This document shows positions 24,763 through 62,950 of a stretch of 64,000 bases of DNA, one piece after another; the first letter of the stretch is position 1, and each line of letters opens with the position of its first letter. The notes beneath the pieces were generated by a model that was not told where the DNA came from, did no database searches, and was given only the letters and a program-made list of their open reading frames with translations. Position numbers and translations under genes: made by a program. Source of the DNA: Lachnospiraceae bacterium (GTDB lineage: Bacteria; Bacillota; Clostridia; Lachnospirales; Lachnospiraceae); contig JAFXXN010000175.1 of the NCBI GenBank assembly GCA_017542245.1, positions 1 through 64,000 of the forward strand. Reading direction: 5' to 3'.

Positions 24763-24839
24763 TATAACAATATGATATGCCGAGTATTATTTTGTTACCA
24801 AGGAAACGCTGAAGGCCTTTTCGAAGTGACAATTGACAA
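24763..24839 (+). repeat. Two-hairpin dispersed repeat, copy 1
   Basis: Starts TATAACAA, has TTTTGTTA (first-stem 3' arm), GGAAACGC-tgaag-GCCTTT (second stem, one mismatch) and ends GTGACAATTGACAA. Lies directly before the GH3 start (24862). It accounts for the spurious in-frame extension upstream of GH3. Confidence 0.85.
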
Positions 24840-24861
24840 AAACAGAAAAGGACGTTTAAAT

Positions 24862-27054
24862 ATGGATAAAAAATCGCTGGAAGCATTATTAAATGATATG
24901 TCAACTGAAGAAAAGGTTATGCAGCTGGTACAGATTCCCGGTTCTGAGTATGAGGCCAGTGCGGAGATCACAGGAATCGAAAGAGGCCAGGTAAAAGATA
25001 ATGTAAAAAGGCTTGCCGGAAGTACTTTAGGAATATGGGGCAGCCAAAGGCTTAGGAAAATTCAAAAGCAGTATATTGAAAATCATCCTCATCATATCCC
25101 GCTCATGTTCATGCTTGATGTTATACACGGACATAAGACGATTTTGCCATGTCCTTTGGGTCAGGGAGCGACATTTGATCCGGATATGGTAAGGAAAGGA
25201 GCTGAAATGCAGGCACAGGAAGCATCTGCTGACGGTGTTCATGCTACATTTTCTCCTATGGCAGATCTTTGCAGAGATGCGAGATGGGGCAGGATCATGG
25301 AATCTACCGGTGAAGACAAAATCTTGAATTCACGTATGGCTTCAGCTATGGTTGAAGGATATCAGGGGAATGATTTAAAAGACAGTGATCACATAGCCGC
25401 CTGTGTAAAGCATTATGCTGCTTACGGTGCTGCTGAAGCCGGAAGGGATTACAACAATACTGAACTTTCGGAACATACTTTGAGGGAGCATTATCTTCGG
25501 GCATACAGCGAGGCTATAAAGAAAAATCCGGTTATGGTTATGACTTCATTTAACAGCATAAATGGAATTCCTGCTACCGGAAACAAATTTCTGATGAAAA
25601 AGATATTAAGAGAAGAGTTTGGTTTTAAGGGAGTCCTTATCTCTGACTGGGGTGCTGTAGGAGAAATGATAAATCATGGTTTTGCTGAGGATCAGAAAGA
25701 TGCTGCATTTAAGGCTATGATGGCAGGAGTGGATATTGACATGTGTTCGGGCTGCTATAGCTCCTGCCTCGTGGATTTGGTAAACACAGATGCTGTGTCT
25801 ATGGAGATGCTCGATGAGGCGGTTCTGAGAGTTCTCAACATGAAGAATGACCTTGGTCTTTTTGAGGATCCTTTCAGGGGTATTGATATGGATGCCGGTC
25901 CTGTGTTAACCGATGAAAGCAGGAACATGGCCAGAGCTGCTGTTGCAGCGAGCCTTGTGCTTCTTGAAAACAAGAATGACACATTACCGCTTAGGAAGGA
26001 AAAGTATGCTTTTATCGGTCCCTATGCCGATAATAAAAAGCTTCAGAGTTCATGGGCTTTTTCCGGAGATGACAAGAATACAGTAACCGTATTGGAAGCA
26101 GCTTTAGAAGTATATAATCCTGAGAGTATTAAAGTTGCTGCCGGCTGTACCATGTTGGATCAGGATACCATGACTGCCAGAGGAAAGCGGCACGTGGATA
26201 ACTGGGAGGAAGAGAACCGCAAACTCCTTACTGAGGCTGTTAAAGCTGCTGAGTGGGCAGATACGGTAATTCTGTGTCTTGGTGAAGATTTTGCTCAATC
26301 CGGAGAAGCTACAAGTAAGGTGAGTCTAAAGCTTTCGGATATACAGTTTAAACTTTTAAATGAAATCAAAAAAAACGGAAAAAAGATAGTAACGCTTGTA
26401 TTTACCGGAAGACCGCTTGAACTTAGTGAAGTAAGAGAACTGTCGGATGCATTGATGATCTGCTGGCTGCCCGGTACCGAAGGAGGACACGGTATACTTG
26501 ATGTTCTTACCGGAAAGATTTCTCCTTCCGGAAGACTGCCGGTAAGTTTCCCTTATACCGTTGGGCAGGAACCCCTGCATTATGACATGTATCCTACAGG
26601 ACGTCCCAGGCCGGAAAACGGACCTTCTGCATTCACATCAAGTTATCTTGACTGTGAAAATGGTGCACTCTATCCTTTCGGATATGGATTGTCATATACT
26701 TCATTTGAATTCATTAATCCGAAACTGAGTTCACAAAAGATGTCAGCCTTTGAAAATATCACTGCTTCCGTAACCGTCAGAAACACCGGTAATATGAAAG
26801 GAAGTGTGACGGTTCAGCTTTATATAAGAGATGTTACATCAAGCCGTGTACGTCCCGTTAGGGAACTCGCAGATTTTAAAAAGATTTTCTTAGATAAGGG
26901 AGAAGAAGAGGAAGTGAGCTTCGTCATAAATGAAGAAATGCTGCGCTTTTGGACTGCGGAAGAAAAATGGGAAAGCGAAGCAGGAAAGTTCCTGGTATGG
27001 ATCTGTAACAGCAGCAGTGATGGGCAACCGCTTGAATTCCGATTGATGATTTAA
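24862..27054 (+). CDS. Glycoside hydrolase family 3 (beta-glucosidase or beta-xylosidase-like)
   Basis: 730 residues from ATG 24862. The frame is open back to 24772, but those extra codons are a dispersed repeat, so the shorter start after AAAAGGA is chosen. N-terminal TIM-barrel GH3 domain with PLMFMLDVIHG, the catalytic nucleophile Asp262 in LISDWGAV, and substrate loops (CVKHYAAYGAAEAGRDYN). A C-terminal alpha/beta domain (LCLGEDFAQSGEATSK) and a fibronectin III-like end (about 620-730) follow. No signal peptide, so it hydrolyses imported oligosaccharides. Followed after 11 bases by a MATE exporter, probably co-transcribed. Glucose versus xylose specificity is uncertain. Confidence 0.93.
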   Translation: MDKKSLEALLNDMSTEEKVMQLVQIPGSEYEASAEITGIERGQVKDNVKRLAGSTLGIWGSQRLRKIQKQYIENHPHHIPLMFMLDVIHGHKTILPCPLGQGATFDPDMVRKGAEMQAQEASADGVHATFSPMADLCRDARWGRIMESTGEDKILNSRMASAMVEGYQGNDLKDSDHIAACVKHYAAYGAAEAGRDYNNTELSEHTLREHYLRAYSEAIKKNPVMVMTSFNSINGIPATGNKFLMKKILREEFGFKGVLISDWGAVGEMINHGFAEDQKDAAFKAMMAGVDIDMCSGCYSSCLVDLVNTDAVSMEMLDEAVLRVLNMKNDLGLFEDPFRGIDMDAGPVLTDESRNMARAAVAASLVLLENKNDTLPLRKEKYAFIGPYADNKKLQSSWAFSGDDKNTVTVLEAALEVYNPESIKVAAGCTMLDQDTMTARGKRHVDNWEEENRKLLTEAVKAAEWADTVILCLGEDFAQSGEATSKVSLKLSDIQFKLLNEIKKNGKKIVTLVFTGRPLELSEVRELSDALMICWLPGTEGGHGILDVLTGKISPSGRLPVSFPYTVGQEPLHYDMYPTGRPRPENGPSAFTSSYLDCENGALYPFGYGLSYTSFEFINPKLSSQKMSAFENITASVTVRNTGNMKGSVTVQLYIRDVTSSRVRPVRELADFKKIFLDKGEEEEVSFVINEEMLRFWTAEEKWESEAGKFLVWICNSSSDGQPLEFRLMI

Positions 27055-27065
27055 AAAATACTAAA

Positions 27066-28436
27066 ATGGATAAATTAGATTTTTTGAGAAACGGTGGAGA
27101 ACTAAGCCGTAAAAATCAGATATCACTGGTTCTGATGCTTAGTTTTCCGGCAATTATGTCCATGATTTCTACTATAATCATGGAATATATAGATGCCTCC
27201 ATGGTGGGCAGTCTGGGGTCGGATTGTTCTGCAGCCATAGGTGTAGTTTCTACTACAACATGGCTTATCTCAGGATTATGCTCTAGTGTTGGCACAGGCT
27301 TTACTGTAGGATTGGCTCACAGGATAGGAGCCGGAGAAGAAGCAGAAGCCAGAAAGTATGTTAAAACCGGTTTTATAATTGTTGTTTTATTTTCTATGGC
27401 ACTAATGGGGTTATCTTTGCTTATACATAGGCAGTTACCTGCATGGATGGGTGCGGAAGAAAAAATATTAGATGATGCAGCGGATTACTTTTTTATATTT
27501 GCGCTTTCTCTGCCTTTGATGCAGATAAATCATACAGGGGCAGGAATGTTAGAATGCAGCGGAAACATGAAGTTACCGGCTATACTTAATGTTGGTCTTT
27601 GTTTTCTTGATGTTCTTTTCAACTCATTTTTCATCTATGAAGCAGGTTTAGGCGTAAAAGGAGCCGCACTGGGTACATTCTGTGCAAATGCAGTTGGTAC
27701 AATATGTATCTTACTTGCTGTTCTTGTTTTTTCAAAGAAACTTCATATCAGGAAAAATGAGCGTGGATTTCTAACGCGTGAAAAAGTTATAAATGCGGTT
27801 AAGATTTCTCTGCCTGTAATGCTAAGTTCTCTTATCATGGGTTTTGCTTATGTACTTTCAACTAAAATAGTAGCTCCGCTTGGCAATGTTGCTATAACTG
27901 CGAATTCATTTTCAATAACTGCAGAAAGTCTTTGCTATATGCCAGGATACGGCATCTCACATGCGGCGGTTACTCTGGTTGGTCAGATGAAAGGTGCCGG
28001 AAATAAGAAACAGGAAAAGAACTTTGCATATATGACCGTAATAATAGGTATGATGTTTATGGCATTGTCTGCAATTCTGTTATATATATTTGCACCGCAA
28101 ATGATAGGTATAATGTCTGCTGAAGAAGAAGTACGGTTACTTGGTACAAAGATACTGAGAATAGAAGCATTTGCGGAGCCAATGTTTGGCGCCTCAATTG
28201 TGGTTGAAGGTGTATTCAGGGGTATAGGAAAAACCAGAATTCCTACAATTCTTAATCTTATAAGTATGTGGTGTATAAGACTTCCGGCATCTTTCTTCGC
28301 TGCCGAAAAATTTGGACTAGTCGGAGTCTGGGTTGTCATGTGCCTTGAGTTATGTTTTAGAGGTATAATATTTCTTTTTTCTATGTGGAAAGAATATAAC
28401 AAAACTGAAGATGCGAAGCACCGTTTTGTTACCTAG
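27066..28436 (+). CDS. MATE family efflux transporter
   Basis: 456 residues with about twelve membrane helices in two related halves. MATE features include LMLSFPAIMSMISTIIMEYIDASMVGSLG (quoted in parts: FPAIMSMIS, YIDASMVGSLG), the GTGFTVGLAHRIGAG segment, and the second-half NSFSITAESLCYMPGYGIS. Exports cationic compounds or metabolites using a sodium or proton gradient. Starts 11 bases after GH3 with no clear ribosome site, so coupling to GH3 translation is likely. The last dozen codons and the stop (TAG) are provided by a dispersed repeat (28395-28472), so the native C-terminus may have been altered. Confidence 0.92.
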   Translation: MDKLDFLRNGGELSRKNQISLVLMLSFPAIMSMISTIIMEYIDASMVGSLGSDCSAAIGVVSTTTWLISGLCSSVGTGFTVGLAHRIGAGEEAEARKYVKTGFIIVVLFSMALMGLSLLIHRQLPAWMGAEEKILDDAADYFFIFALSLPLMQINHTGAGMLECSGNMKLPAILNVGLCFLDVLFNSFFIYEAGLGVKGAALGTFCANAVGTICILLAVLVFSKKLHIRKNERGFLTREKVINAVKISLPVMLSSLIMGFAYVLSTKIVAPLGNVAITANSFSITAESLCYMPGYGISHAAVTLVGQMKGAGNKKQEKNFAYMTVIIGMMFMALSAILLYIFAPQMIGIMSAEEEVRLLGTKILRIEAFAEPMFGASIVVEGVFRGIGKTRIPTILNLISMWCIRLPASFFAAEKFGLVGVWVVMCLELCFRGIIFLFSMWKEYNKTEDAKHRFVT

Positions 28437-28472
28437 GAAACGCAGAAAGCGTTTTCGGGGTTACATTGACAA
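28395..28472 (+). repeat. Two-hairpin dispersed repeat, copy 2
   Basis: TATAACAAAA ... GATGC-gaa-GCACC ... TTTTGTTA, then AAACGC-agaaa-GCGTTT, ending TTACATTGACAA. Overlaps the end of the MATE gene and supplies its stop codon; the next start is 28517. Confidence 0.88.
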
Positions 28473-28516
28473 AAAATGAAAATACTCTTGATAAATATTT
28501 TAATTGAGGTAATCGG

Positions 28517-29365
28517 ATGACGAAAAAAGATGATTATAATAATCATTTAAAAAATGATTCACGAAATAGAGAATATACACAGGAAGAATATGAACTATTG
28601 CTTCAGGATGCTAATAATCTTCTGAATGATACAGAAAGAATGATAGCCAGGACAGAAGCGAAAATGACTGTAAGCAAAAAGAAAAAATATATGTTTATGA
28701 TATCTTTCCAAATGATGGTATTTCTAATGATCATAGGTGGATTTATTCTTCTGTTTGCTGTTGTTTATGCAAGTGACTGTATTTCTTTAAGACATAATAC
28801 AAAAGCTGCGGTCATAGCAGTTGGGTTTGCAGTTGCTGTTGAAGGACTATTCATTTTCTGGATTCTTAAATCATTAAAGCTTAAGAAAGAATTTGACAGT
28901 GATGTTGAGAGAACATTAATATCCGGTGATTATGAACATATCATATCATCGCATACTCAAAAAAAGTCAAAGAATGTTGAACTTAAATATAGAATTGAAC
29001 TCTTAGAAAAATTATCAAAAAATGAGCTTTTTGAGGCCGAAGATGAATGGGATTCTTTATATAATACTATAACAGACTCATTTTACAGATTTTCATCGGA
29101 TTATTATACCTGTATAAAAAATAATAAACTATATAAATATTTTATAGAAATACGATATGAAAACGGATACCCGGACAGTGAAAAAATAAAACTTCTCGAA
29201 GAAAAAGTAAGTAAAGAAATTGAATCTATAGAGGATTTTGATCTTTCAAGGCAGATGTATCCATTCAAAGAAAAGATAAAGGAAATAGTTTCGCGGTATT
29301 ATTCACAGTATGTTTCAGATATCAAACTTAAGGAAGTTTGTGTAGCTGTAGTGCCTGTCAACTGA
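28517..29365 (+). CDS. Small membrane protein of unknown function
   Basis: 282 residues. A charged N-terminal 55 residues with coiled-coil character, two membrane helices (about 58-85, MISFQMMVFLMIIGGFILLF, and 95-117, VIAVGFAVAVEGLFIFW), then a cytoplasmic C-terminal half rich in Lys, Glu and Tyr. No recognised domain. TGAGGT ribosome site. It lies between the MATE and asparaginase genes and has a dispersed repeat just upstream. Function cannot be assigned. Confidence 0.7.
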   Translation: MTKKDDYNNHLKNDSRNREYTQEEYELLLQDANNLLNDTERMIARTEAKMTVSKKKKYMFMISFQMMVFLMIIGGFILLFAVVYASDCISLRHNTKAAVIAVGFAVAVEGLFIFWILKSLKLKKEFDSDVERTLISGDYEHIISSHTQKKSKNVELKYRIELLEKLSKNELFEAEDEWDSLYNTITDSFYRFSSDYYTCIKNNKLYKYFIEIRYENGYPDSEKIKLLEEKVSKEIESIEDFDLSRQMYPFKEKIKEIVSRYYSQYVSDIKLKEVCVAVVPVN

Positions 29366-29423
29366 ATTTGGAGGCATGATTAGGTTTTTAAAAAATTTAA
29401 TAATATAAAACAGGAGGTGTTCT

Positions 29424-30479
29424 ATGAAACGTATTCTTTCTTTCATTCTCTGTATTGCTTTAATGCTTAGCATTGCACCAGTCAATGCCAATGCCGCTGC
29501 TAAGTCTGGCAACAAGGGAAAAATTATTGTTCTTGCTACGGGAGGAACAATAGCAGGTGTTGGTGATGTCGGAAAAACAGCCGGATATAAGCCCGGTTCA
29601 TTGACTGCCGATGAGCTGCTTTCTGCAGTACCTCAGCTTGCCGATATTGCAGAAATAGAGGCAGTACAGATATGTAATGTTAATTCTGATGATATTACTG
29701 CAGAAACGTGGCTTACAATTGTAAATACCATTAATGAAAAAGCTGCAGATCCTGAAGTAAAAGGTTTTGTTATTACTCATGGAACAGATACTTTGGAAGA
29801 AACCGCATATTTTCTAAATCTTACTGTAAAAACAGACAAGCCCGTTGTTCTTACCGGTTCAATGAGACCTTCTACATCAATTTCAGCCGACGGGCCTATG
29901 AACCTTTATGAGGCTGTTTGTGTTGCTGCTTCAGAAGAAGCTGTCGGGCAGGGAGTTCTTGTAGTCTTTTCAGACAGAATATTTGCTGCAAGAACGGTTA
30001 CTAAAACAAGTACTTATCATGTAACTGCAATCAGTTCCGGTGAAACAGGAGCAATCGGCATAGTACGTGACGGTGAAGTATTTTTGTATGAGAGTCCGGT
30101 TAAGAAACATACGACTGAGACGGAATTTGATGTAAGCGGTTTAAAAAATCTTCCTAAAGTTTCAATCCTTTATTTTTCTGTTGATGCAAGTCCTAAGCTT
30201 GTTAAATACGCAGCAAAATATTCGGACGGATTGGTTATTGCCGGGGCCGGGGCAGGAGAGTTCAGTAAGAAATGGATAAAAGCCATTAAGAAACTTAAAA
30301 TTCCTGTAGTTATCAGTTCAAGAATTGATGACGGTATTATAACAAAGGAAAATCTGCTTTGCAAGAATACTGTTGCAGCCAATAATCTTTCACCTCAAAA
30401 GGCAGCAATACTTTTAAGGCTTGCATTAATAAATAATGCTGATCAAAAGACTCTTGAAAAAATGTTCCTTGAATATTGA
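29424..30479 (+). CDS. Secreted L-asparaginase (type II-like)
   Basis: 351 residues. Signal peptide (about 1-26, ending ANA-AA), then the asparaginase fold: first catalytic threonine motif ATGGTIAG (about 38-45), second motif THGTDTLEET (about 113-122), substrate loop TGSMRPSTSISADGP and the C-terminal IDDGIITKENLL. Hydrolyses asparagine to aspartate and ammonia outside the cell, giving nitrogen and reduced carbon. AGGAGGTG ribosome site. Length and secretion fit type II enzymes. Monocistronic, followed by a perfect palindrome. Confidence 0.93.
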   Translation: MKRILSFILCIALMLSIAPVNANAAAKSGNKGKIIVLATGGTIAGVGDVGKTAGYKPGSLTADELLSAVPQLADIAEIEAVQICNVNSDDITAETWLTIVNTINEKAADPEVKGFVITHGTDTLEETAYFLNLTVKTDKPVVLTGSMRPSTSISADGPMNLYEAVCVAASEEAVGQGVLVVFSDRIFAARTVTKTSTYHVTAISSGETGAIGIVRDGEVFLYESPVKKHTTETEFDVSGLKNLPKVSILYFSVDASPKLVKYAAKYSDGLVIAGAGAGEFSKKWIKAIKKLKIPVVISSRIDDGIITKENLLCKNTVAANNLSPQKAAILLRLALINNADQKTLEKMFLEY

Positions 30480-30494
30480 CAAATGATAACTGAC

Positions 30495-30524
30495 GACAGG
30501 GGACGGTTCGAACCGTCCCCTGTC
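30495..30524. repeat. GGGGACGG perfect palindrome, 15-bp arms
   Basis: GACAGGGGACGGTTC followed directly by its exact reverse complement, 30 bases in all. Sits between the convergent asparaginase and aldehyde dehydrogenase genes and may act as a weak terminator (TCTTTACA on the plus side). Shares the GGGACGG core with hairpins at 11911-12010 and 33310-33347. Confidence 0.9.
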
Positions 30525-30530
30525 TTTACA

Positions 30531-31910: not shown

Positions 31911-31972
31911 TTAAATGTGCCTTTCTGTATTTTTGTGGGGAATAGCTATTATCAAGCAAGTTTGAATGGCTT

Positions 31973-33181: not shown

Positions 33182-33309
33182 GATCTTTTCCTTTGTGTTA
33201 AATATTTGGGATTATGCCCAAAGCACTATTTTATCAGTATTTTATAAAATGTCAAGCATGTATTAATGAAAACTACATTATGTGATTATTAAAACTATAT
33301 AAATAATAA

Positions 33310-33347
33310 AAAGGGGACGGTTTTGTCAACGTAAATCCGTCCCCTTT
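33310..33347. repeat. GGGGACGG hairpin
   Basis: AAAGGGGACGG (33310-33320) and CCGTCCCCTTT (33337-33347) form an 11-bp stem with a 16-base loop. Third member of the GGGACGG set. Lies in the 285-base gap upstream of the alcohol dehydrogenase and downstream of the next minus-strand gene, where it could act as a terminator. The rest of the gap shows nothing else. Confidence 0.85.
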
Positions 33348-33466
33348 CGCCATTTTAGCCCCCAATTATGGACAGGTGAAGATCATATTTTACAAAATTA
33401 TAGCAATATAAAACAGTCCATTATATACATATGAAGTTCATCCTTGAAAAAACAATAACTGTATCC

Positions 33467-34492: not shown

Positions 34493-34520
34493 AGTTCCCC
34501 TTTCCTTATATATCCCAAGG

Positions 34521-34578
34521 TATCAAAACAGAAGATATTACCTACCTCTTAGCGGAGTATCATTTTGTTACCTTGACA
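34521..34578 (+). repeat. Two-hairpin dispersed repeat, copy 3 (second hairpin deleted)
   Basis: TATCAAAACAGAAGATAT ... AGCGGAGTATCATTTTGTTACC joined directly to TTGACAT. Shares the longer loop (CCTCTTAGC) with copy 4. Sits in the 330-base divergent gap 34493-34822, which otherwise holds only the promoter at 34725-34753 and AT-rich sequence. Confidence 0.75.
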
Positions 34579-34724
34579 TATAGTAAAAAATATGGACATT
34601 TATGTGTAACATCTGTTATCAAAATAAAATTATACCATAATTTGCTAAGATTTGCTACAAATATATGAGACTTAAAAAAATATTTTAAAGTGTCTTAAAA
34701 CATTGACTTTTTTAGGATTTTTTA

Positions 34725-34753
34725 TTGACAAATATGTTGCAAAAAAATATAAT
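34725..34753 (+). promoter_or_regulatory. Consensus promoter of the AIM24 gene
   Basis: TTGACA (34725-34730), exactly 17 bases, TATAAT (34748-34753), with an A-run just before the -10. The spacer and both hexamers match the housekeeping consensus fully. Confidence 0.88.
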
Positions 34754-34822
34754 ATATTATAATTAATACAGAGAGAATAATACTGTGTTAATGCTTTTAA
34801 TATTTTTAAGGAGGAAAATGTA

Positions 34823-35497: not shown

Positions 35498-35532
35498 TAT
35501 GTAACTCAACAATAAAGCACTATTTATCAAAG

Positions 35533-35560: not shown

Positions 35561-35614
35561 ATTTTTCTTTTTCAAAACAACATAATCAGTGACAAAATAT
35601 AAAATATATGGTAA

Positions 35615-35706
35615 TATAACAAAATAGAAGATATCCCCCACCTCTTAGCAAAGCATCATTTTGTTAACGTGGAAACGTAGAAGGCGTTTTTGTGGTGACA
35701 TTGACT
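35615..35706 (+). repeat. Two-hairpin dispersed repeat, copy 4
   Basis: TATAACAAAATAGAAGATAT, longer loop with CCTCTTAGC, GCATCATTTTGTTA, then AAACGT-agaag-GCGTTT and GTGACATTGACT. 30 bases before the GH31 start. Confidence 0.88.
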
Positions 35707-35736: not shown

Positions 35737-38103
35737 ATGCTTCCATGTATTCCTTACGATCAAAATGTGATAACAGATTTTGAAAAGAATAGCGATTATG
35801 TTATTCTTAAGCTGAAAGAAGGAAAGATCAAGTTAACGCCTGTTAATGAGAGAAGTATACGTATTATGTATACTAAAAAGGACTTCTTTTCTAATGAAGA
35901 CTTGAATCCTGATAAGCAGGCAAAGCCCGGTCTCATAGACCTTGTTCCATATACAGACTTTGAGATTAATGATGGTACCGAAAAAGATCTGATAGAATTT
36001 TCTTTACCTAAGCTTATCATAGAAATAGACAAAAAAACGAATTCATTTAATTACTATGACAGAAATGAAGATGGTTCTAAAGGAAAGCTTTTGCTTAAGG
36101 AAGGCAAAAGATCTAAAGAAATTGAAGAATTTCCTATTTACCGAATAGCTGAAAATTCGGGTAAAAAGGAATATATAGAAACAGCTGACGGAAAGAAAGA
36201 AGTGTTTAGAGATGCCGGGAAGATACAGACCGGCTCTGCATACCATACCTGGTTAAGACTTAAATTTGATGAGGATGAAGCTTTATATGGATTAGGTCAA
36301 CATGAAGAAGGCTTTGGAAACTTAAGGGGTAAAAGGGTTTATCTTCATCAGGGTAACAGAAAGATAGCCATTCCGGTCCTTGTTTCATTAAAAGGCTATG
36401 GAATCATGATTAATTCTTATAGTCCGTCAATCTTTAATGATACCGAAGAAGGAACATACTATTATACAGAAGCTGATGAAGAAATGGACTTCTTCTTCAT
36501 GAATGGCAACAGTCCTGACGGAGTAATAAAAGAATACAGAAAAATCACAGGAAAAGCTGCTATGCTTCCTAAGTGGGCATATGGATATATTCAGTCCCAG
36601 GAAAGATATGAAACTCAGGAAGAAATACTGAATGTTGCAGAACAATATCGAAAAAGGAATATTGGCTTAGATTGTATAGTCCTTGACTGGATTTCATGGG
36701 AAGATAACTGCTGGGGGCAGAAAAGTTTTGATCCGGCAAGATTTCCGAACACCGATATGATGACAAAAACACTGCATGACAACCATGTTCATTTTATGAT
36801 TTCTATCTGGCCCAACATGGCTGAGATTACAGAAAATCATAAAGAGATGAAAGCTGCCGGATTAATGCTTCCGGGATACAGTTTGTATGATCCTTTTAAA
36901 GCGGAAGCACGAAAGCTGTACTGGAAACAGGCAAATGAAGGTTTGTTTAAACATGGGATTGATGCTTGGTGGTGTGATAACAGTGAACCCATAGCTCCGG
37001 AATGGATGAGACAGGTTAGGCCTGACAGTGCCAAAATGTTTGCAGATTATATTTCTGAAACATCATATATCATGCCTGCGACAAAAACTAATGCTTACGG
37101 TCTTTATCATGCGCAAGGTATATATGAAGGCCAAAGATCCGTAACAGATGAAAAGAGAGTAATAAATCTTACACGAAGCGGATATATAGGTCAGCAAAAA
37201 TATGGAACAATTCTCTGGTCAGGAGATATCTCTGCTTCATGGGATACATTAAGAAAACAGGTTTCTGCCGGTACAGGCTTCTGTGCATCAGGTATGCCTT
37301 ACTGGACTGTTGATATAGGTGCTTTTTTCGTAAAGAACGGAATAAACTGGTACTGGGACGGAGAATATGATGAAGGTCCTAAGGATCCGGCATATTGTGA
37401 ACTTTTTACAAGATGGTATCAATGGGCAGCATTTCTTCCGATTTTCCGAGGACACGGAACTGATTTCAGAAGGGAACTGTGGGAGTTTGACAATTCCGAC
37501 GCTCCTTTCTATAAAGCATTATTAAAAGCAAACAGAGTAAGATATGAACTTATGCCGTATATTTACTCTTTAGCCGGTATGGTATGGCTTGAAGATAGTT
37601 TGATCATCAAACCTCTGGCATATTCTTTCGGTGATGACAAAAATACGTGGAACATAAAGAATCAATATATGTTCGGAGATTCCATGATGGTCTGTCCTGT
37701 GACAGAACCGATGTATTTTAATACAGAAGTTGTTTCACACACGCGAAAGGTATACCTGCCTAAAGGCTGTGGGTGGTATGAATATTTTACCTCACGGTTC
37801 TATGAAGGCGGTCAGTGGATTGATGCAGATGCTGAACTTGATCATATTCCGGTATTTGTCCGCGAAGGGTCGATAATCCCTGTAACTGAGTTTGCGCTTT
37901 CTACGGAAGAACAGTCTAACGATATAGTATTTATTGTTTATCCCGGAAAAGATGCTTCATTTAAGCTTTATCAGGACAGTGGTGACGGATATGCTTATGA
38001 AAAGGGAGCATTTACGGTAACGGATATTGTCTGGGATGATAAAGAGCAGAAGCTTACTCCTGATGATATTAACTATAGAGTGATTAGTAATATAACAAAA
38101 TAG
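35737..38103 (+). CDS. Glycoside hydrolase family 31 (alpha-glucosidase or alpha-xylosidase)
   Basis: 788 residues, cytoplasmic (no signal peptide). Galactose-mutarotase-like N-terminal domain (about 1-235), then a TIM barrel with LDCIVLDWISWED, nucleophile Asp414 in DAWWCDNSEP and the probable acid/base Asp497 in LWSGDISASWDTL, then beta-sandwich C-terminal domains (DSMMVCPVTEPM, HIPVFVREGSIIP). Removes terminal alpha-linked glucose or xylose, e.g. from xyloglucan oligosaccharides. AGGAG ribosome site. Its stop codon TAG lies inside copy 5 of the dispersed repeat, and copy 4 lies just upstream, so this gene is bracketed by repeats. Confidence 0.93.
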   Translation: MLPCIPYDQNVITDFEKNSDYVILKLKEGKIKLTPVNERSIRIMYTKKDFFSNEDLNPDKQAKPGLIDLVPYTDFEINDGTEKDLIEFSLPKLIIEIDKKTNSFNYYDRNEDGSKGKLLLKEGKRSKEIEEFPIYRIAENSGKKEYIETADGKKEVFRDAGKIQTGSAYHTWLRLKFDEDEALYGLGQHEEGFGNLRGKRVYLHQGNRKIAIPVLVSLKGYGIMINSYSPSIFNDTEEGTYYYTEADEEMDFFFMNGNSPDGVIKEYRKITGKAAMLPKWAYGYIQSQERYETQEEILNVAEQYRKRNIGLDCIVLDWISWEDNCWGQKSFDPARFPNTDMMTKTLHDNHVHFMISIWPNMAEITENHKEMKAAGLMLPGYSLYDPFKAEARKLYWKQANEGLFKHGIDAWWCDNSEPIAPEWMRQVRPDSAKMFADYISETSYIMPATKTNAYGLYHAQGIYEGQRSVTDEKRVINLTRSGYIGQQKYGTILWSGDISASWDTLRKQVSAGTGFCASGMPYWTVDIGAFFVKNGINWYWDGEYDEGPKDPAYCELFTRWYQWAAFLPIFRGHGTDFRRELWEFDNSDAPFYKALLKANRVRYELMPYIYSLAGMVWLEDSLIIKPLAYSFGDDKNTWNIKNQYMFGDSMMVCPVTEPMYFNTEVVSHTRKVYLPKGCGWYEYFTSRFYEGGQWIDADAELDHIPVFVREGSIIPVTEFALSTEEQSNDIVFIVYPGKDASFKLYQDSGDGYAYEKGAFTVTDIVWDDKEQKLTPDDINYRVISNITK

Positions 38104-38168
38104 AAGATGCAGAGCATCGTTTTGTTACCGAGGAAACGCTGAAGGCGTTTTAGAGGTGACATTGACAA
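38091..38168 (+). repeat. Two-hairpin dispersed repeat, copy 5 (most complete)
   Basis: TATAACAAAA, GATGC-aga-GCATC, TTTTGTTA, then AAACGC-tgaag-GCGTTT and GTGACATTGACAA. Overlaps the GH31 end; the ilvB start is 52 bases on. Taken as the reference copy. Confidence 0.93.
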
Positions 38169-43158: not shown

Positions 43159-43419
43159 ATGAAAAAAAGATATAAGGAACTCTGCACGTGCAAACATTGC
43201 GGTAAAACGTATGAAGGATATAAAAATACAAGTACCTGTGATGACTGCAAAGATATTGACAACATGATCTTCACACAGATACGAGTTTATCTTAGAAAAT
43301 ATCCAAACAGTAATGCAATCCAGATATCGGAAGCCCTTGGCATAAGTACAAACCTTATCATGAAATATATAGATGAGGGAAGGCTTTTCTTTGGAAAGGG
43401 AACATTTTCAAAATTATAA
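43159..43419 (+). CDS. Small zinc-ribbon / helix-turn-helix protein (YvyF-like)
   Basis: 86 residues from ATG 43159; the in-frame GTG at 43147 overlaps the AGAGGTGG ribosome site. N-terminal zinc ribbon with two CxxC pairs (CKHCG, CDDCK) and a C-terminal helix-turn-helix (IQISEALGISTNLIMKYIDEGRL). This layout matches the small flagellar-operon protein of the YvyF/TIGR03826 type, a possible regulator. No flagellar gene is nearby here, so its target is unknown. It lies between cls and ruvA and may be co-transcribed with cls. Confidence 0.75.
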   Translation: MKKRYKELCTCKHCGKTYEGYKNTSTCDDCKDIDNMIFTQIRVYLRKYPNSNAIQISEALGISTNLIMKYIDEGRLFFGKGTFSKL

Positions 43420-43490
43420 CAAAACATAAGATAAAGCATCATTTTTTTTACATGGAAACGCTAAGGATGTTTCCGGAGCAATATTGATAA
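43415..43490 (+). repeat. Two-hairpin dispersed repeat, copy 6
   Basis: TATAACAAAACATAAG ... GCATC ... TTTTTTTA, then GGAAACGC-taagg-ATGTTTCC and AATATTGATAA. More diverged than copy 5. It supplies the stop codon of the small zinc-ribbon gene; ruvA starts 19 bases after it. Confidence 0.8.
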
Positions 43491-50452: not shown

Positions 50453-50528
50453 TTATTATAAAAAATGATGCAGAGCATCGTTTTGTTACTGAGGTAATGC
50501 TGAAGGCATTTTCGATGTAACATTGATG
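50453..50528 (+). repeat. Two-hairpin dispersed repeat, copy 7
   Basis: GATGC-aga-GCATC, TTTTGTTA, then AATGC-tgaag-GCATT (both stem sides changed relative to copy 5, keeping pairing) and GTAACATTGATG. 28 bases before the histidine kinase start. Confidence 0.88.
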
Positions 50529-53136: not shown

Positions 53137-53153
53137 TTATCGAGGGACAAAGT

Positions 53154-55847: not shown

Positions 55848-55861
55848 AAGGAGCATATATT

Positions 55862-57031
55862 ATGAGTGAAATTGATTTTAAAAAACTTACAGAATTTCTT
55901 GACAGTATGGTTGAGGCAGGAATCCCTTCGGTAGACTGTATTGTTTGCCGGGATCATAAGGAAATTTACAGGCATATGTCAGGAACTGTAGATATTGAGA
56001 AAAAGAAACCCGTATCCTCAGATCAGAGATATCTTATGTTCTCCATGACAAAAGTTATGACTATGACGGCTGTACTTCAGCTTGTAGAGAAAGGACTTCT
56101 GTCTTTGGATGATGAAGTCGGACGATTTCTTCCGGCGTACAAAAATGTCAAAGTTAAAGTAAAACAAAACGATCCTTCTGATGGGACAGTCAAGTCGGAC
56201 GTTTTAGTCACGGATCTTAAAAGGCCAATGCTGATCAAACATCTGCTTTCTATGCAGTCAGGACTTGACTATAATCTTGAACGCGGCGGCATAAACAGGA
56301 TTCTTAAAGAAAAAGGGAAAAACGCGACCACTCGTGAACTTGTTGATTCATTTGTCGAATCTCCCCTTGATTTTCAGCCGGGAGAACATTTTGCATACAG
56401 CCTAAGCCACGATGTTGTCGGAGCTGTTATAGAAGTTGTATCCGGAATCAGTTTTGGTGAATATCTGAAGAAAAACATTTGGGAACCACTGGGACTAAAA
56501 GATACCTTCTTTGCCAAACCTATGAATGACGGCGTTGAAAGACTGGCTCAGCAGTTTACCAGTAACGAAAAAGGAGAGATTTCTCCCATGGATCAGTCAT
56601 GCTGCTATCAGCTTTCCGATTCTTATGAGAGCGGAGGAGCCGGGCTTATAAGTACTACGGAAGATTATATGCTGTTAGGTGACGCTTTGGCATGCAAAGG
56701 CATGGGAAAGACCGGAGTTCGCATTCTTAATCCTGAAACAGTTGAAATTATGAAAACAAATCTTCTATGCGAAAACTCCATGAAGGAAATTGCAACGAAT
56801 ATGGGACGTACCGGTTTTGGATATGGCTGCGGAGTACAGGTTCTCCTTGATCCGAAACTTATAGGAAGTAAGGCTCATGTAGGTGTTTTTGGCTGGGACG
56901 GTGCAGCCGGCAGTCTTGTACAAATGGATACTTCGACCGGAACAAGCGTTGTTTACACAATGCATGTCAGAAGCTGCGGCATGGCATACGGTACAATTCA
57001 TCCTACAATACGCGAGATTGTTTTTATATAA
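55862..57031 (+). CDS. Serine hydrolase, beta-lactamase (class C/esterase) family
   Basis: 389 residues, no signal peptide. SxxK catalytic motif SMTK at residues 61-64, a YSL motif where YxN is usual (FAYSLSHDVVG, about 177-187), and the C-terminal HVGVFGWDGAAGS segment in place of KTG. Members are esterases, peptidases or transglycosylase-like enzymes rather than resistance factors. It follows the DegV kinase by 14 bases (AAGGAG), so it probably shares that operon; a lipid or ester substrate related to the DegV sensor is a guess. The missing Asn in the second motif may alter activity. Confidence 0.85.
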   Translation: MSEIDFKKLTEFLDSMVEAGIPSVDCIVCRDHKEIYRHMSGTVDIEKKKPVSSDQRYLMFSMTKVMTMTAVLQLVEKGLLSLDDEVGRFLPAYKNVKVKVKQNDPSDGTVKSDVLVTDLKRPMLIKHLLSMQSGLDYNLERGGINRILKEKGKNATTRELVDSFVESPLDFQPGEHFAYSLSHDVVGAVIEVVSGISFGEYLKKNIWEPLGLKDTFFAKPMNDGVERLAQQFTSNEKGEISPMDQSCCYQLSDSYESGGAGLISTTEDYMLLGDALACKGMGKTGVRILNPETVEIMKTNLLCENSMKEIATNMGRTGFGYGCGVQVLLDPKLIGSKAHVGVFGWDGAAGSLVQMDTSTGTSVVYTMHVRSCGMAYGTIHPTIREIVFI

Positions 57032-57069
57032 AAAAGAATTTACTTTTTGGGTCTGTAAGAGTATAATGA

Positions 57070-57105
57070 AGGAAACACTAAAAGTGTTTCGATGTGACAT
57101 TGACT
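57070..57105 (+). repeat. Two-hairpin dispersed repeat, copy 8 (second hairpin and tail only)
   Basis: GGAAACAC-taaaa-GTGTTTC followed by GATGTGACATTGACT. Stem bases changed in pairs relative to copy 5 (CGC/GCG to CAC/GTG). Located 57 bases before the HD-GYP gene. Confidence 0.8.
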
Positions 57106-57161
57106 TCGAAGATTTAGATGACATTTGAATTCTCATATCTTGTTTATCAGGAGAAGAAAAT

Positions 57162-59375
57162 ATGGAATCAAACATTATGGAAGGAAAGCGTAAAACAGGT
57201 TTGCTCAGGGCTTTTTTACTTGTTCTGACAGGCCTTGTCATAAATTTATTATTCTCAAATATTGTAAAATTACTCGAATTGCCGCTATATATTGATACTG
57301 TGGGTATCATATTTACCTCGGCCATGGGAGGATATATTCCCGGAGTTGCTGTAGGATATATCACTAACATTATTAATGGTATAAGCGATTTAGAGAGTTA
57401 TTATTACGGAACTTTAAGTGTATTTATTGCCGTTATTGCCGCCTATGGCTCCAGAAGAGGCTGGTTCAGAAAAATTACCGGTATTATCAAATCCATAATT
57501 CTTTTTACTATTGCAGGCGGTGTACTCGGTTCGATTCTTACATGGATGCTCTATGGTTTTGATCCCGATTCCGCAAAACCTATCGCAGCCTCATTTTATG
57601 ATAACGGAAACGGATTGAGTCCTTTCTGGGCACAGTTCTGGTCTGACGTAATATATGATCTGATAGATAAAACAATTACAGTTATTATAGTTCTAGGCAT
57701 TCTGATCGTTGTACGAAAACTTTTAAAAATACGAAAGGTGGATTTTTCCTTCTGGCATCAGAATGTACTTAGTGAAGAGAACCTGAAACATGTAAAAAAG
57801 AGCAAGACAAGAAGTACGCCTCTAAGGACGAAAATACTTATTATTCTTGGTACCGTTATGGTCATCATAGCTTGTGCTACAACACTTATCGGATTTATGA
57901 TATTCCATTATAAACTGATAGATGATAACGAAGCAATGGGAACAGGTATCACCAATATTACAGCGTCACTTCTTGCAAGAGAAGAGAAATATATTACTCC
58001 TGAAAGTATAATTGTAGAGTCTGACCGGATAGATGAGATTATTGCCAAAGGAGAGGATGATCCTGAATTTAAAGCTATACAGGATCAAATGGAACGTATC
58101 GCTAAGAGTCACCCTGATATACAGAACATTTATGTTGTAAGAATGACCGAAAAAGGATACGAATGTATTATTGATGCAAATATAAATGATGATTACTGGC
58201 ATCCGGGACAGATCATTCCATATGAGGAACAGCCGGATTTTATACAATATAAAGAAGCAGCACTTAATGGCGAAGATATTCCTGCCATTATCATGGATGA
58301 TAAATACGGGTGGTTTCTTACAAAGTTCAGAGCTGTAAGAAATTCAGCCGGAGAGACAGTATGCTATTCATGTGTCGATATTCTTATGAGCCATATACAG
58401 GAGGATGAGAATACATTCCTTGCGAAAATCATTTCGCTCTGTATCGGATTCTTTATACTTATAATGGTTATAGTCCTGTGGCTTACTGACTATTGTGTAG
58501 TTTATCCTCTTAATGCTTTGGCCTTATCGGCAAAGGATATGGCTTTCCATATTGAAGGAACTGAAAAAGACGAGGCTGCTAAGATAAAAAGTCTTGGTAT
58601 TACAACAGGCGACGAGATAGAAACACTTTATGACGCTCTTGTAAAAACAAGCGATGATATAGTAAAGCATGTAAATGATATAGAAGAGCAGAAAGATACT
58701 ATAAGCGAGATGCAGACCGCCTTGATCACTGTTCTCGCCAATATGGTTGAAAGCCGTGACAAGTTTACCGGAAACCATGTTAAAAATACTGCTAGTTACG
58801 CTAAGATCATACTTGATCGATTAAGAGAAGATGAAAATTACAAAGATATCATTACAGAGGATTATGAAAAGACAATAATCAATTCCGCTCCTTTGCATGA
58901 TGTCGGTAAGATTCAGATTCCTGACTCTTTATTGAATAAAAACGGCCGATTAACCGATGAAGAGTTTTTAAAGATGCAGCATCATACTCTTGCAGGTCAA
59001 AAGATTATTGATGAAGCTGCAAGCATGGTAAAGGATTCTTTATACTTATCTGAAGCAAGAAATCTTGCAGCGTATCATCATGAAAAATGGAACGGAACAG
59101 GTTATCCTTATGGCCTAAAAGGAGAAGATATTCCTCTTTCTGCAAGGATTATGGCTGTAGCAGATGTATTTGATGCTCTTGTTTCAAAGCGAAGTTACAA
59201 ACCCGGATTTCCTGTTGAAAAAGCTCTTGATATAATAAAAGAAGGGGCCGGAACACATTTCGATCCCGAGATAGCAAAAATATTCCTAGATGCAGAAGAT
59301 GAAGTAAGAAAAGTTGCTGAAATAAATTATAAGCGTGATAATCCTGAAGAGAAAAAAGGAGATTTAAATGTCTGA
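57162..59375 (+). CDS. Membrane HD-GYP domain protein (probable c-di-GMP phosphodiesterase)
   Basis: 737 residues. About five or six N-terminal helices (15-190, with IDTVGIIFTSAMGGYIPG resembling an ECF substrate-binding membrane fold), a further helix (about 224-250), an extracellular sensor of about 170 residues, a helix (about 422-445), a HAMP-like linker and coiled coil (to about 520), then HD-GYP (about 525-715): HD pair 579-580 in APLHDVGKIQIPD, HHEKWNGTGYP and VFDALVSKRSYK. These motifs fit active phosphodiesterases that degrade c-di-GMP. Overlaps the diguanylate cyclase gene by 8 bases, so synthesis and breakdown enzymes are co-expressed. Confidence 0.93.
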   Translation: MESNIMEGKRKTGLLRAFLLVLTGLVINLLFSNIVKLLELPLYIDTVGIIFTSAMGGYIPGVAVGYITNIINGISDLESYYYGTLSVFIAVIAAYGSRRGWFRKITGIIKSIILFTIAGGVLGSILTWMLYGFDPDSAKPIAASFYDNGNGLSPFWAQFWSDVIYDLIDKTITVIIVLGILIVVRKLLKIRKVDFSFWHQNVLSEENLKHVKKSKTRSTPLRTKILIILGTVMVIIACATTLIGFMIFHYKLIDDNEAMGTGITNITASLLAREEKYITPESIIVESDRIDEIIAKGEDDPEFKAIQDQMERIAKSHPDIQNIYVVRMTEKGYECIIDANINDDYWHPGQIIPYEEQPDFIQYKEAALNGEDIPAIIMDDKYGWFLTKFRAVRNSAGETVCYSCVDILMSHIQEDENTFLAKIISLCIGFFILIMVIVLWLTDYCVVYPLNALALSAKDMAFHIEGTEKDEAAKIKSLGITTGDEIETLYDALVKTSDDIVKHVNDIEEQKDTISEMQTALITVLANMVESRDKFTGNHVKNTASYAKIILDRLREDENYKDIITEDYEKTIINSAPLHDVGKIQIPDSLLNKNGRLTDEEFLKMQHHTLAGQKIIDEAASMVKDSLYLSEARNLAAYHHEKWNGTGYPYGLKGEDIPLSARIMAVADVFDALVSKRSYKPGFPVEKALDIIKEGAGTHFDPEIAKIFLDAEDEVRKVAEINYKRDNPEEKKGDLNV

Positions 59376-61314
59376 TTACAGAAAAATCATAGCTGTATGC
59401 GGTGTATGGTTATATGAAGAAAAAGAATATGGATTTATTAAAGAATTGAATAAAATGTGCAGTGAAAAAGGCTATGTTGTAATGGCATTTAACTTTTCAA
59501 TCGACACTATGACTTTGGAAGATGACATCATAAGGGAAAAGAAGCTTCTTGAACTTATGAGTTATCTTGATTGTTCTGCCGTGATTATCATGGGTGAAAC
59601 AATCAAGAGCGAAAGAATGTTTGACTGCATCAAAAAAAATATAAAGAGCATGAATGTCCCGACATTTACTCTGGAATGCCCCATTGAGGGATGTATTAAT
59701 ATCTCTATGTGTTTCGGAGATGGATTCAGAAATATTGTTAATCATATTATTAAAGATCATGGCTGCCGCAAAGTAAACATGATCGCAGGAGTTAAGGATA
59801 ATTCTTTTTCTGAAGACAGAATACAAGTCTATAAAGAAGTGCTTCAGGAAAACGGTATTCCTTTTGAAGAAAAAAGACTCGGATATGGTAACTTTTGGGA
59901 CAGACCGGCAAGGCAGGTTACCGAACAATTTCTTGAAGAAGGAGATATCCCTGAAGCTATAATATGTGCGAATGATGTTATGGCAGTGGCAGCATGTAAA
60001 GTACTTGATGAAAGAGGTATACACGTTCCTGAAGACATTATTGTAACAGGCTTCGACGGAATTGAAAGCGCTAAGATCAACTATCCCTCAATCTCTACGG
60101 TTGCACCTGACTATGAAGAAGAAGTTAATCTGATTTTCCAAATGCTTGAAAAAATTGAAAAATGTGAAAAAGTTGATCTTGATAAAACATATAAAATAAG
60201 TTTTAAAGTATTAAAAAATCAATCCTGCGGCTGCGGTAAAATTGATGAACGGGAAGCACGTGACCGGATAAGCACTTTTTCAGTTCTTGCAAATGATCAG
60301 AAGTGGCATATGATGGCTCTTAATAAAATGCTTCTTTATTCAAGCGAAAAAGATAAACTGTCCGATATGACTTCATTACTTGAAGAAAGTATAGGATTAT
60401 GGGTAAATAATTTATATTTTGTCGCTGTTTATGAACAGTTTTATAATGGTTCAGATGAATTAGCCATTCAGGAAAAACCCGGGTATGCAAAAGAAGATTC
60501 CTGCGTGACATTACTAAATGAACAAAATTATGATATTAACAGGGACAGAACACCTTTTAAAGAAGAAATCCTCATGCCGGATATGAAGGAAATCTTTAGA
60601 ACCGATAACGGCTATGATATGTTCATGGTCAGACTTATAAATACCAAGTCAGATCTTTATGGATATATTATCGAGGGATTCAGGGATGTTGATGCCCGTT
60701 CCATGAGAAGATGCGAGGAATTCGGTCTATTCCTTTCAACTGCTATTACTGCAGTTCTTAAAAACCAGAAGCTCATACAGCTTAACGAAAAATTAAGGCG
60801 TATTAATAAAGAAATGGAACAGGCTTCTATCAGAGATTATCTTACTGAGCTGTATAACAGAAGAGGATTCTATGATGAACTTTATAAAATAGTTCATTCG
60901 AAAGATAATGAAGGAAAATACCTTACTTTTTGTTCAATTGATATGGATGGTCTCAAAATTATTAATGATACCTATGGTCATGACGATGGGGATTTTGCCT
61001 TAAAAGCATTGGCTTCGGCTATAAAACATTTTGCTATAAGAAACGGAATCTGTGCCCGATACGGCGGTGACGAATTTGTATGTGCATTGCTTACTGAAGT
61101 TGAGACAAATTTTAATGCAGATATTATAAGAGCACGTTTTAAATCTACTTTCGACAAAAACAAAGAACTTGCCGAAAAGCCTTATGATGTATGTGCAAGT
61201 ATCGGCTGCCGATGTGCAATGATAACTCCGGGACTTAATCTGGATGAGCTGATGAGAATAGCAGACGAAGAAATGTATCAGGATAAACTTTCAAGAAGAA
61301 AATCCCGTGATTGA
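59368..61314 (+). CDS. Diguanylate cyclase with LacI/periplasmic-binding-type sensor domain
   Basis: 648 residues, start overlaps the HD-GYP gene (AAGGAG inside it). Residues about 5-285 match the sugar-binding domain of LacI-type regulators (CANDVMAVAACKVLDERGIHVPEDIIVTGFDG in parts) but without the DNA-binding helix-turn-helix, signal peptide or membrane helix, so it should sense a cytoplasmic ligand. A middle region (about 290-470) is followed by GGDEF (about 480-645) with active-site GGDEF at 566-570 (CARYGGDEFVCAL). The inhibitory RxxD site is not seen (IRNG at the matching place). Makes c-di-GMP in response to a sugar-like ligand, inferred. Confidence 0.9.
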   Translation: MSDYRKIIAVCGVWLYEEKEYGFIKELNKMCSEKGYVVMAFNFSIDTMTLEDDIIREKKLLELMSYLDCSAVIIMGETIKSERMFDCIKKNIKSMNVPTFTLECPIEGCINISMCFGDGFRNIVNHIIKDHGCRKVNMIAGVKDNSFSEDRIQVYKEVLQENGIPFEEKRLGYGNFWDRPARQVTEQFLEEGDIPEAIICANDVMAVAACKVLDERGIHVPEDIIVTGFDGIESAKINYPSISTVAPDYEEEVNLIFQMLEKIEKCEKVDLDKTYKISFKVLKNQSCGCGKIDEREARDRISTFSVLANDQKWHMMALNKMLLYSSEKDKLSDMTSLLEESIGLWVNNLYFVAVYEQFYNGSDELAIQEKPGYAKEDSCVTLLNEQNYDINRDRTPFKEEILMPDMKEIFRTDNGYDMFMVRLINTKSDLYGYIIEGFRDVDARSMRRCEEFGLFLSTAITAVLKNQKLIQLNEKLRRINKEMEQASIRDYLTELYNRRGFYDELYKIVHSKDNEGKYLTFCSIDMDGLKIINDTYGHDDGDFALKALASAIKHFAIRNGICARYGGDEFVCALLTEVETNFNADIIRARFKSTFDKNKELAEKPYDVCASIGCRCAMITPGLNLDELMRIADEEMYQDKLSRRKSRD

Positions 61315-61386
61315 ACATAATTTAATTAGTTTAAAAGACTTGCCCGATGTCTGAATTTTTTTGTAAATATATATAGAATCGTTATA

Positions 61387-61417
61387 CATTCCACGTGTTT
61401 TCTACGCACGTGGAATG
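61387..61417. repeat. Inverted repeat CATTCCACGTG/CACGTGGAATG
   Basis: Perfect 11-bp arms around a nine-base loop, in the 234-base gap before the VirD4-like gene. No clear T-run follows, so terminator or operator are both possible; an otherwise AT-rich gap. Confidence 0.7.
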
Positions 61418-61548
61418 CTTTGCAAAAAAGTGAATTTATTTCTGCAATTTATGTCAAAAAAATAATGCTTACATAAAAGGTAAAGTGTAGTAATATGATA
61501 TCAACAGAAGAAGTATGGATATAATTCTGTACGGGGGGAGTTGATATT

Positions 61549-62844
61549 ATGGCTAGAGTAAAAGGACTTGAAGATTTAAAATGGGGGAGCATTAAAGCTT
61601 TTAACAAGAGTTACTCGCATCTTTCGGTAAAGAGGGAACCCGAGTCTAATGACTTCATTCTTTCCGAAAGTGTAAGATTACGTCTTACACGTTATGGTGA
61701 GAATAACAGTTATAATAATAATGTTATTGTTATGGGAAGCTCCGGTTCAGGGAAGACAAAACTATATGTTAAGCCAAATATTCTTCAGAGAAACTGCAGC
61801 TATGTTGTTACTGATAAAGCCGGTCTTCTTTATAATGACCTTAACAGTCTTTTCAAAAGTTCAGGTTATACTGTAAAGATTATTAACAGTCTGGATCCGG
61901 AACGCAGTGATTATTATAATCCTTTTGTATATATTCATGATGAAGACGATATCACAGATGTAGCTAATGCACTTCTTGCTTCAGACACAAGCGATGTTGT
62001 TACCTTGAGCGAGAAGAAGATGCTTCTTGAAGCTCTTATCAGCTATGTAAAGAATTTTGCAGATGATTCTAACCGCAATTTCAAGATGGTTAAGCAGATG
62101 CTTTCAGAGATGGAATACGGAGGATTCGGTGATAACGGAGATAACTGGAAGATTAAGCCTGCAGATGATCTTGACAGAAGATTCTTAGAGGTCGACAGTT
62201 CAAATCCCGATCATCCCTGCCTTACCAAATATGATAATTTCCGTATCATGGTCGGCACAGATAAAATGGAGATAGCAGAATCTATCACCAAGATTGTTAA
62301 TTCAATAACCGCAGGTGTTATTGACCGTTCAGGAGATCTTGATTCCGTTGAACTTGACAAGATCGGTGATTCAAAGAGAATCCTCTTTATTGTCCGTCCG
62401 AATACCGGTGTTAACTCTGAATTCCCTGCACTGCTTTATTTCCAGATTTTCTCAGCTCTCTTTAAGAAAGCTCAAAAGCAGGCATTATATTATCCTGTAC
62501 ATCTGATGATGAGTGATTTTGGTGAGAACGGAAAGATTTATGATTTCCCCAGAATACTTATGACATCCAAAAAATATGACATTTCCTGTTCTATTATTAT
62601 AAGAACTATTGATGACCTTAAGGATATGTATAAAGATTATCAGACAGTTATTAAGAACTGCTCCATGCAGGTATTTATGGGAAGTAAAGACAGGAATACA
62701 ATGGAATATGTCGCCCAACAGGTTAATGAAACAGGTTCGAAAATTGCGGGAACGTTGTATACGGAAATGCTGAATGACATGGAAGACGACGAATGCATTG
62801 TCATAGCCACGGGTGGCGAAGCATATTATGATAATAAATTCTAA
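61549..62844 (+). CDS. Isolated VirD4/TraG-like coupling ATPase
   Basis: 431 residues. Walker A GSSGSGKTKLYVKPNIL (about 62-78), YVVTDKAGLLYNDL matching the D(P)KGE-type strand of coupling proteins, and NPFVYIHDEDD. Walker B should read LDEFANIG; here it is MSDFGENGK, so the usual D-E pair is S-D. The end matches the family's SIII... segment (DISCSIIIRTIDDLKDMYKDY, in parts) and a sensor-like GSKDRNTMEYVAQQVNETG. Shorter than usual coupling proteins and without N-terminal membrane helices. No relaxase or other conjugation gene is nearby; possibly a relic or a co-opted ATPase. Start ATG after GGGGGGAG. Confidence 0.85.
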   Translation: MARVKGLEDLKWGSIKAFNKSYSHLSVKREPESNDFILSESVRLRLTRYGENNSYNNNVIVMGSSGSGKTKLYVKPNILQRNCSYVVTDKAGLLYNDLNSLFKSSGYTVKIINSLDPERSDYYNPFVYIHDEDDITDVANALLASDTSDVVTLSEKKMLLEALISYVKNFADDSNRNFKMVKQMLSEMEYGGFGDNGDNWKIKPADDLDRRFLEVDSSNPDHPCLTKYDNFRIMVGTDKMEIAESITKIVNSITAGVIDRSGDLDSVELDKIGDSKRILFIVRPNTGVNSEFPALLYFQIFSALFKKAQKQALYYPVHLMMSDFGENGKIYDFPRILMTSKKYDISCSIIIRTIDDLKDMYKDYQTVIKNCSMQVFMGSKDRNTMEYVAQQVNETGSKIAGTLYTEMLNDMEDDECIVIATGGEAYYDNKF

Positions 62845-62856
62845 CACTTAAAATAT

Positions 62857-62892
62857 GCCCCCACGCATTTAATGCTGGTGGGGGCTGTTTTT
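62857..62892 (+). terminator. Intrinsic terminator of the VirD4-like gene
   Basis: GCCCCCAC (62857-62864) and GTGGGGGC (62878-62885) with an inner GCATT/AATGC stem, then TGTTTTT. Confidence 0.93.
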
Positions 62893-62900
62893 AAATTGAT

Positions 62901-62950
62901 TTTTGTTTCTTAAGAAAACACCGAAGGTATTTTTGTGGTGACATTGACAA
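62901..62950 (+). repeat. Two-hairpin dispersed repeat, copy 9 (first arm missing)
   Basis: TTTTGTTTCTTAAGAAAACAC-cgaag-GTATTTTT, ending GTGGTGACATTGACAA. Located between the VirD4-like terminator and hpt. Confidence 0.8.

Follow-up and report, generated by a model that had tools for sequence, protein, structure and literature searches.

The 64,000-nt stretch of DNA analyzed here (hereafter the window) comprised positions 1 to 64,000 of contig JAFXXN010000175.1 in Lachnospiraceae bacterium assembly GCA_017542245.1 (source genome G000), and it carried nine copies of a short, folded, dispersed repeat. The copies were best explained, with a probability of about 0.58, as members of a non-coding and non-autonomous family of mobile elements, which would resemble IS200/IS605 insertion sequences (ISs) and would be moved as single-stranded DNA to positions after a TATA-like tetranucleotide. 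The evidence was more in keeping with jumping DNA than with an RNA control switch that is conserved: the element recurred across the source genome, no intact copies were seen at ten compared places in relatives, copies in different species were nearly identical, decay affected both sides of the element, and orientation was strongly biased.

Copies, forms, and distribution of the element

Covariance model R1 represented the short form of the element and was built from 29 training rows, four of them from the window (24763, 28395, 38091, and 50453). In an unfiltered search of the window, the top nine R1 matches (E, 1.6e-26 to 0.011; tenth-ranked match, E 0.16) were the nine places listed in the original prediction, all on the plus strand (Table 1). 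The number and single orientation of the copies were thereby reproduced, while the two hairpins ascribed to all of them were found in six of the nine. Gene starts in the window were called with our own simple coding-score gene finder (a script), and eight of the nine copies lay 19 to 56 bases 5' of such a start, as predicted, with 34521 lying 238 bases before one. The gene call upstream of 43415 stopped at the TATAA of that copy. The window contained shortened forms only and no full 156-nt form.

Table 1. Copies of the element in the window (copies named by the positions in the original prediction)
Copy	Coordinates	Strand	Content	R1 match
24763	24761..24838	+	Short form, both hairpins	69.6 bits, E 4.5e-17
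28395	28395..28471	+	Both hairpins, within last codons of gene 27066-28436	92.1 bits
34521	34519..34584	+	Remnant: first part of 92-nt form; hairpin 1 remnant, hairpin 2 lost	19.2 bits, E 0.011
35615	35615..35706	+	92-nt form: both hairpins, both outer parts plus half a long-form hairpin (set against long form by eye)	67.1 bits
38091	38091..38167	+	Short form, best such copy in the window; both hairpins plus tail; RNA fold z -5.7	102.7 bits
43415	43415..43489	+	Decayed copy, both hairpins	39.4 bits
50453	50454..50528	+	Decayed copy, both hairpins, in divergent gap	81.4 bits
57070	57070..57105 (model match 57025-57105)	+	Hairpin 2 plus tail only	24.6 bits, E 3.3e-4
62901	62914..62949 (model match 62886-62949)	+	Hairpin 2 plus tail only	26 bits, E 1.3e-4

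The short form was 77 nt and the full form 156 nt in length (TATA in front counted), the latter having four hairpins, two of them being extra ones within the first arm. The full form would start directly after a host TATA-like tetranucleotide, and it finished with ...GACATTGAC; the conserved unit ran from TATAAC to TTGAC, these ends did not constitute terminal inverted repeats, and the flanks outside were near background, with a weak A/T preference at the left. Folding predicted a hairpin near each end of both forms, and in the modeled 156-nt fold (z of -9.4 for RNA and -8.4 for DNA), the outer stem could enclose three hairpins, followed by the fourth hairpin and the tail. The 77-, 92-, and ~106-nt forms looked like internal deletions of the 156-nt form: the 92-nt type was found at five sites plus remnant 34519, and a CCCCCACCTCTTAGC-type piece in 34521 and 35615 was a leftover of the 156-nt form. 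Copies were cut on either side, some being without the 5' part and others having an intact left end but a lost right part. A tRNA-like fold was rejected, as ARAGORN found no tRNA in four long-form loci.

The element was not confined to the window, since R1 gave 144 matches in the source genome at E ≤ 0.01 (150 scored of 3582 candidates), and absence elsewhere, against which the original prediction had been set, was not observed. Pattern searches of the source genome gave more matches than chance: the left-end pattern had 66 plus 31 matches versus 0 plus 1 for the reversed pattern, and the right-end pattern had 78 plus 36 versus 0 plus 0. R1 matches occurred in 16 of the 24 genomes of the genus (source genome included), the copy-rich relatives being G013 (106 matches), G007 (95), and G010 (32). 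Outside the genus, matches were marginal in two of 17 genomes (E, 5e-4 and 1.7e-3); among 392 genomes drawn from the order, with at most two candidates scored per genome, one weak match (G363, E 9.5e-9) was found besides the source genome; and a pattern scan of named genomes returned six stretches in three metagenome-assembled genomes of rumen Lachnospiraceae. No match to the element was found in plasmids by a distant search or in viral contigs by one exact pattern; the window had no Rfam match at the gathering score, and three long-form loci had only chance-level matches below it. A literature search, in which most subscription journals were not covered, found no description of this element. 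The source assembly was listed with 8.58% contamination, and some of its contigs may be foreign to the organism.

With the long form as the query, a match at E ≤ 1e-20 was obtained in 10 of the 24 genus genomes, with a length of at least 149 bases in nine of the ten and ~100 in G019. The best long-form copies were 95–99% identical in six related species (G010, G013, G008, G007, G006, and G003) and 88–89% identical in G001 and G022, while the window genes matched those of five of the six relatives (G003 was not searched) at 65–87% among the matches listed; because the long-form copies were 95–99% identical while the genes of these species were clearly more different, the element had spread recently. 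Contigs broke off ~140 bases into long-form copies (C146, C149, C68, and C169 of G000, plus several of G013 and G007); the long form was an assembly-breaking element and was therefore undercounted in these assemblies. At L301 (G013:C206), a left-end fragment was located beside a full long-form copy of opposite orientation.

Insertion sites and orientation

A total of 24 sites were prepared where the upstream gene reached the element, and 14 left flanks were searched in eight relatives. Comparable places numbered 30 and came from ten of these sites (three 28395 places were found twice and counted once), and by eye none of the 30 contained an intact element. This comparison of orthologous gaps, together with the genome-wide copies and the near identity of the long form between species, supported the 'miniature mobile element' of the original prediction. 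The sequence alignments at the junctions were as follows: (i) C34:114913 versus L230, the best empty site, was crossed with a one-base gap and without duplication; (ii) C30:3584 versus L253 was gapless at the junction, again without duplication; and (iii) 28395, the one clear empty site when the window region was used as the query, lacked the element in L189, L192, and L197, with gaps of 3–5 bases beyond the junction in L189 and L197. Sites other than C34:114913 and C30:3584 gave less clean alignments. In L231 (G006:C83), a collapsed element was present a few bases from the place matching C30:3584, and the same gap may be hit repeatedly.

TATA occurred exactly at the junction in eight of the 30 places (five of the ten sites), a TATAA stop codon was seen by eye at the same codon in relatives at several sites, and 65 of 84 copies that were picked solely by ACAAAA at positions 5–10 had TATA in front. 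One copy was nested in another palindromic repeat, whose loop measured 21 bases if TATA belonged to the host, versus 22 in two other copies. The likeliest reading was that TATA served as the target and was not duplicated, and TATA would be the target in general. The second dispersed palindromic repeat had GTCATCCCGA-type and CAGAATGAC-type arms and a loop of ~22 bases (L108:3961-4101, L131:3977-4074, L186, and L277); one copy had the element inside its loop, and another had a hairpin-2 copy as its loop.

Orientation was examined for 147 copies (the 144 R1 matches plus three weak window copies), none of which lay inside a called gene (15-base tolerance). The bias relative to genes held genome-wide: the neighboring genes were both sense relative to the element in 100 cases, divergent in 28, convergent in 12, both antisense in 3, and incomplete in 4. 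The locally G-rich strand held 135 of the 147 copies. With strands assigned from local GC skew, copies in leading sense and against it numbered 97 and 1 in gaps between leading-strand genes, 23 and 5 in divergent gaps, 9 and 3 in convergent gaps, and 2 and 3 in gaps between lagging-strand genes; the gene-neutral gaps displayed a replication-strand bias of 32:8 (p 0.0002). Among the 23 long-form copies readable in 30 loci, the neighboring genes were both sense for 13 copies and both antisense for 2, while 4 copies had convergent, 3 divergent, and 1 incomplete neighbors.

Candidate mobilizing enzyme and comparison with known systems

Ends-only derivatives of IS200/IS605 elements are known, and BOX, ERIC, NEMIS/Correia, and RUP repeats of other bacterial groups are, by description only, like the element in being dispersed, intergenic, folded, and modular. 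According to PMC7290912, IS200/IS605-type ISs are without inverted repeats or duplications, have their insertion points 3' of a tetra- or pentanucleotide, and rely on hairpins at their ends; according to PMC6006769, they act on the lagging-strand template. Set against these family features (PMC7290912 and PMC6006769), the element was like the ends-only (PATE-like) derivatives in having no inverted repeats, no duplication seen, and end hairpins, and it would also be like them in having a short fixed sequence alongside and a strand bias, but it was unlike them in that no autonomous partner with its ends was found and in that it had four hairpins in 156 nt, no recognizable coding piece, and a high copy number. 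The element thus appeared on present evidence to behave like an IS200/IS605 ends-only element. It would move as single-stranded DNA and insert 3' of TATA, a Y1 (HUH) transposase, supplied in trans and working on the template of the lagging strand, would recognize its hairpins, and the sense bias would arise in part from strand preference and in part from loss of antisense insertions.

The element was also like repetitive extragenic palindromic (REP) sequences and REPINs with their REP-associated tyrosine transposases (RAYTs, TnpA-REP), being short, palindromic, intergenic, and present in many copies. The source genome had one Y1_Tnp match, which was RAYT-like (L209:1213-1920, minus strand). 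RAYT-like genes, sorted from the other Y1 genes by our own criterion of length plus score, were present in nine of the 16 genus genomes with elements versus one of the eight without (p 0.08) and, in genomes of ≥90% completeness (a post hoc split), in five of five versus one of five (p 0.048); this co-occurrence was suggestive only. Unlike REP/REPIN systems, the element was one asymmetric multi-hairpin unit and did not flank Y1 genes, and its consensus as read from alignments did not show the GTAG/GTGG tetranucleotide at the hairpin foot, a REP/RAYT feature according to PMC6006769 and PMC3733652. As no matching transposase turned up and two of the REP features were absent, the comparison extends to likeness but not to membership.

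A number of observations weighed against the preferred reading of single-strand movement by a Y1 transposase. Y1 matches were examined with R1 at 31 of 44 loci, including all 25 of the genus, and among them no transposase was detected whose element had ends like these, although R1 represented the short form and could miss distant ends; we therefore only infer the enzyme class. In the neighborhood of the 25 genus matches to Y1, no element-like match was better than E 0.22, and the lone Y1 gene of the source genome (no element in L209) was separated from the closest element by ~1.3 kb and one other gene. No Y1 gene was found in G007, which had 95 R1 matches and a completeness of 81%. L220, a Y1 locus outside the genus, gave a weak R1 match (E 0.0026) in repeats unlike this element. 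As for the target, only the eight of 30 places mentioned above showed TATA, and L243 among them, where ACAAAA followed, may represent a remnant of the left end; the relative at the best two-sided site (L230) read TGTA; L231 had its collapsed element, and L233, L254, and L257 had tail-like letters; and C114:32913 had 9–11 extra bases next to the junction in the source genome. As for the strand, local GC skew is itself influenced by gene direction, and the co-directional bias of 97:1 was stronger than the neutral-gap bias of 32:8 (Fisher p 0.0002). Target sequence was rejected as the cause of the sense bias, because after masking of the copies, 567 co-directional gaps contained TATAA 324 times in sense and almost as often, 286 times, in antisense orientation.

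The repeats at L220:2150-2380 lay by a Y1 gene from a different family within the order and consisted of short GGGACGGTTCTT-type units, the letters of which differed from those of the element.

Stem changes and alternative explanations

The original prediction had also offered an mRNA-processing or stability element. Such an mRNA element, with translation control as a further possible role, would be maintained by selection in leaders and between the genes of operons, whether or not it was mobile; this was judged unlikely, if still the foremost of the alternatives. The excess of both-sense over both-antisense copies (100 versus 3) was in its favor, as were the closer spacing of the copy to its sense neighbor in divergent gaps (23 of 28; p 0.0009), the start of 79 of 131 sense downstream genes 15–60 bases past the copy, the strong RNA folds of the short (z, -5.7) and long (z, -9.4) forms, and the both-side changes and inner stem 1 pairs beyond shuffle level. 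Stem changes were counted in 139 aligned copies (135 distinct rows), in which 90.6% of the cells were pairing: both-side changes were found in 37 cells versus 16.0 (sd 3.6) in shuffles, such counts being inflated by relatedness and the alignment having been fitted to the model structure, and the pairs beating the shuffles were (i) all five of inner stem 1 (0–5 of 500), (ii) one of nine in outer stem 1 (7 of 500), and (iii) three of fifteen in stem 2 (at ≤27 of 500). Partners slid by +3 columns, with an equal number of pairs (11), still yielded 31 both-side cells, and the compensatory changes of the original prediction were thus present but weak, with support for selection on structure being weak at best. 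A sense RNA under selection predicts drift of G-C pairs to G-U more than to A-C, but the respective changes numbered 72 and 60 in stem 2 (p 0.34) and 24 and 17 in inner stem 1 (p 0.35); because A-C decay nearly equaled G-U decay in stem 2, a maintained mRNA hairpin was not supported. The cutting of copies on either side and the Rfam results likewise stood against an mRNA element. We read these changes as folding needed for movement followed by mostly free decay, with which the truncation on either side agrees.

Two further explanations keep mobility and change its route, and both were regarded as improbable to a like degree, somewhat more so than the mRNA element. An element traveling via an RNA copy, or one entering transcribed DNA on its non-template strand, would accord with the excess of the sense bias (97:1) over the replication bias (32:8) and with the 38 of 147 matches that retained the 3' part without a TATAA-type head, but it sits poorly with copies that had an intact left end and a lost right part; retro-type 5' truncation, suggested by the hairpin-2-only copies, was set back by these 3'-truncated copies. 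Alternatively, a bare 156-nt folded DNA passing between species of the rumen genus might be inserted as a single strand after TATA by an enzyme other than a recognized Y1 transposase in a manner coupled to transcription, and it would therefore be sense in nearly every co-directional gap. A classical miniature inverted-repeat transposable element (MITE), moved by a DDE (cut-and-paste) transposase and flanked by a TA duplication, would be small, non-coding, and placed in an AT-rich target like the element, and the first-stem arms TAACAAAA/TTTTGTTA resembled inverted repeats, but with a conserved unit extending to TTGAC, ends that were not inverted repeats, a right flank not starting with TA, and a best empty site without duplication, it was considered quite improbable. 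Least credible was a promoter-carrying repeat, in which TATAAC would serve as the -10 box or, alternatively, the TTGACA tail would serve as the -35 box: the element letters resembled both boxes, but neither a -35 box excess 15–19 bases before TATAAC (90 copies) nor a -10 box excess 15–19 bases after the tail (99 copies) was found, and both promoter readings were rejected.

If the preferred reading of an IS200/IS605-like element moved as single-stranded DNA is true, rumen Lachnospiraceae would harbor a family of bare hairpin elements that has been active recently and has a target of its own. With ~100 or more R1 matches apiece in the source genome (144), G013 (106), and G007 (95), the family would be suited to studying why elements of this kind come to sit in sense orientation between genes.

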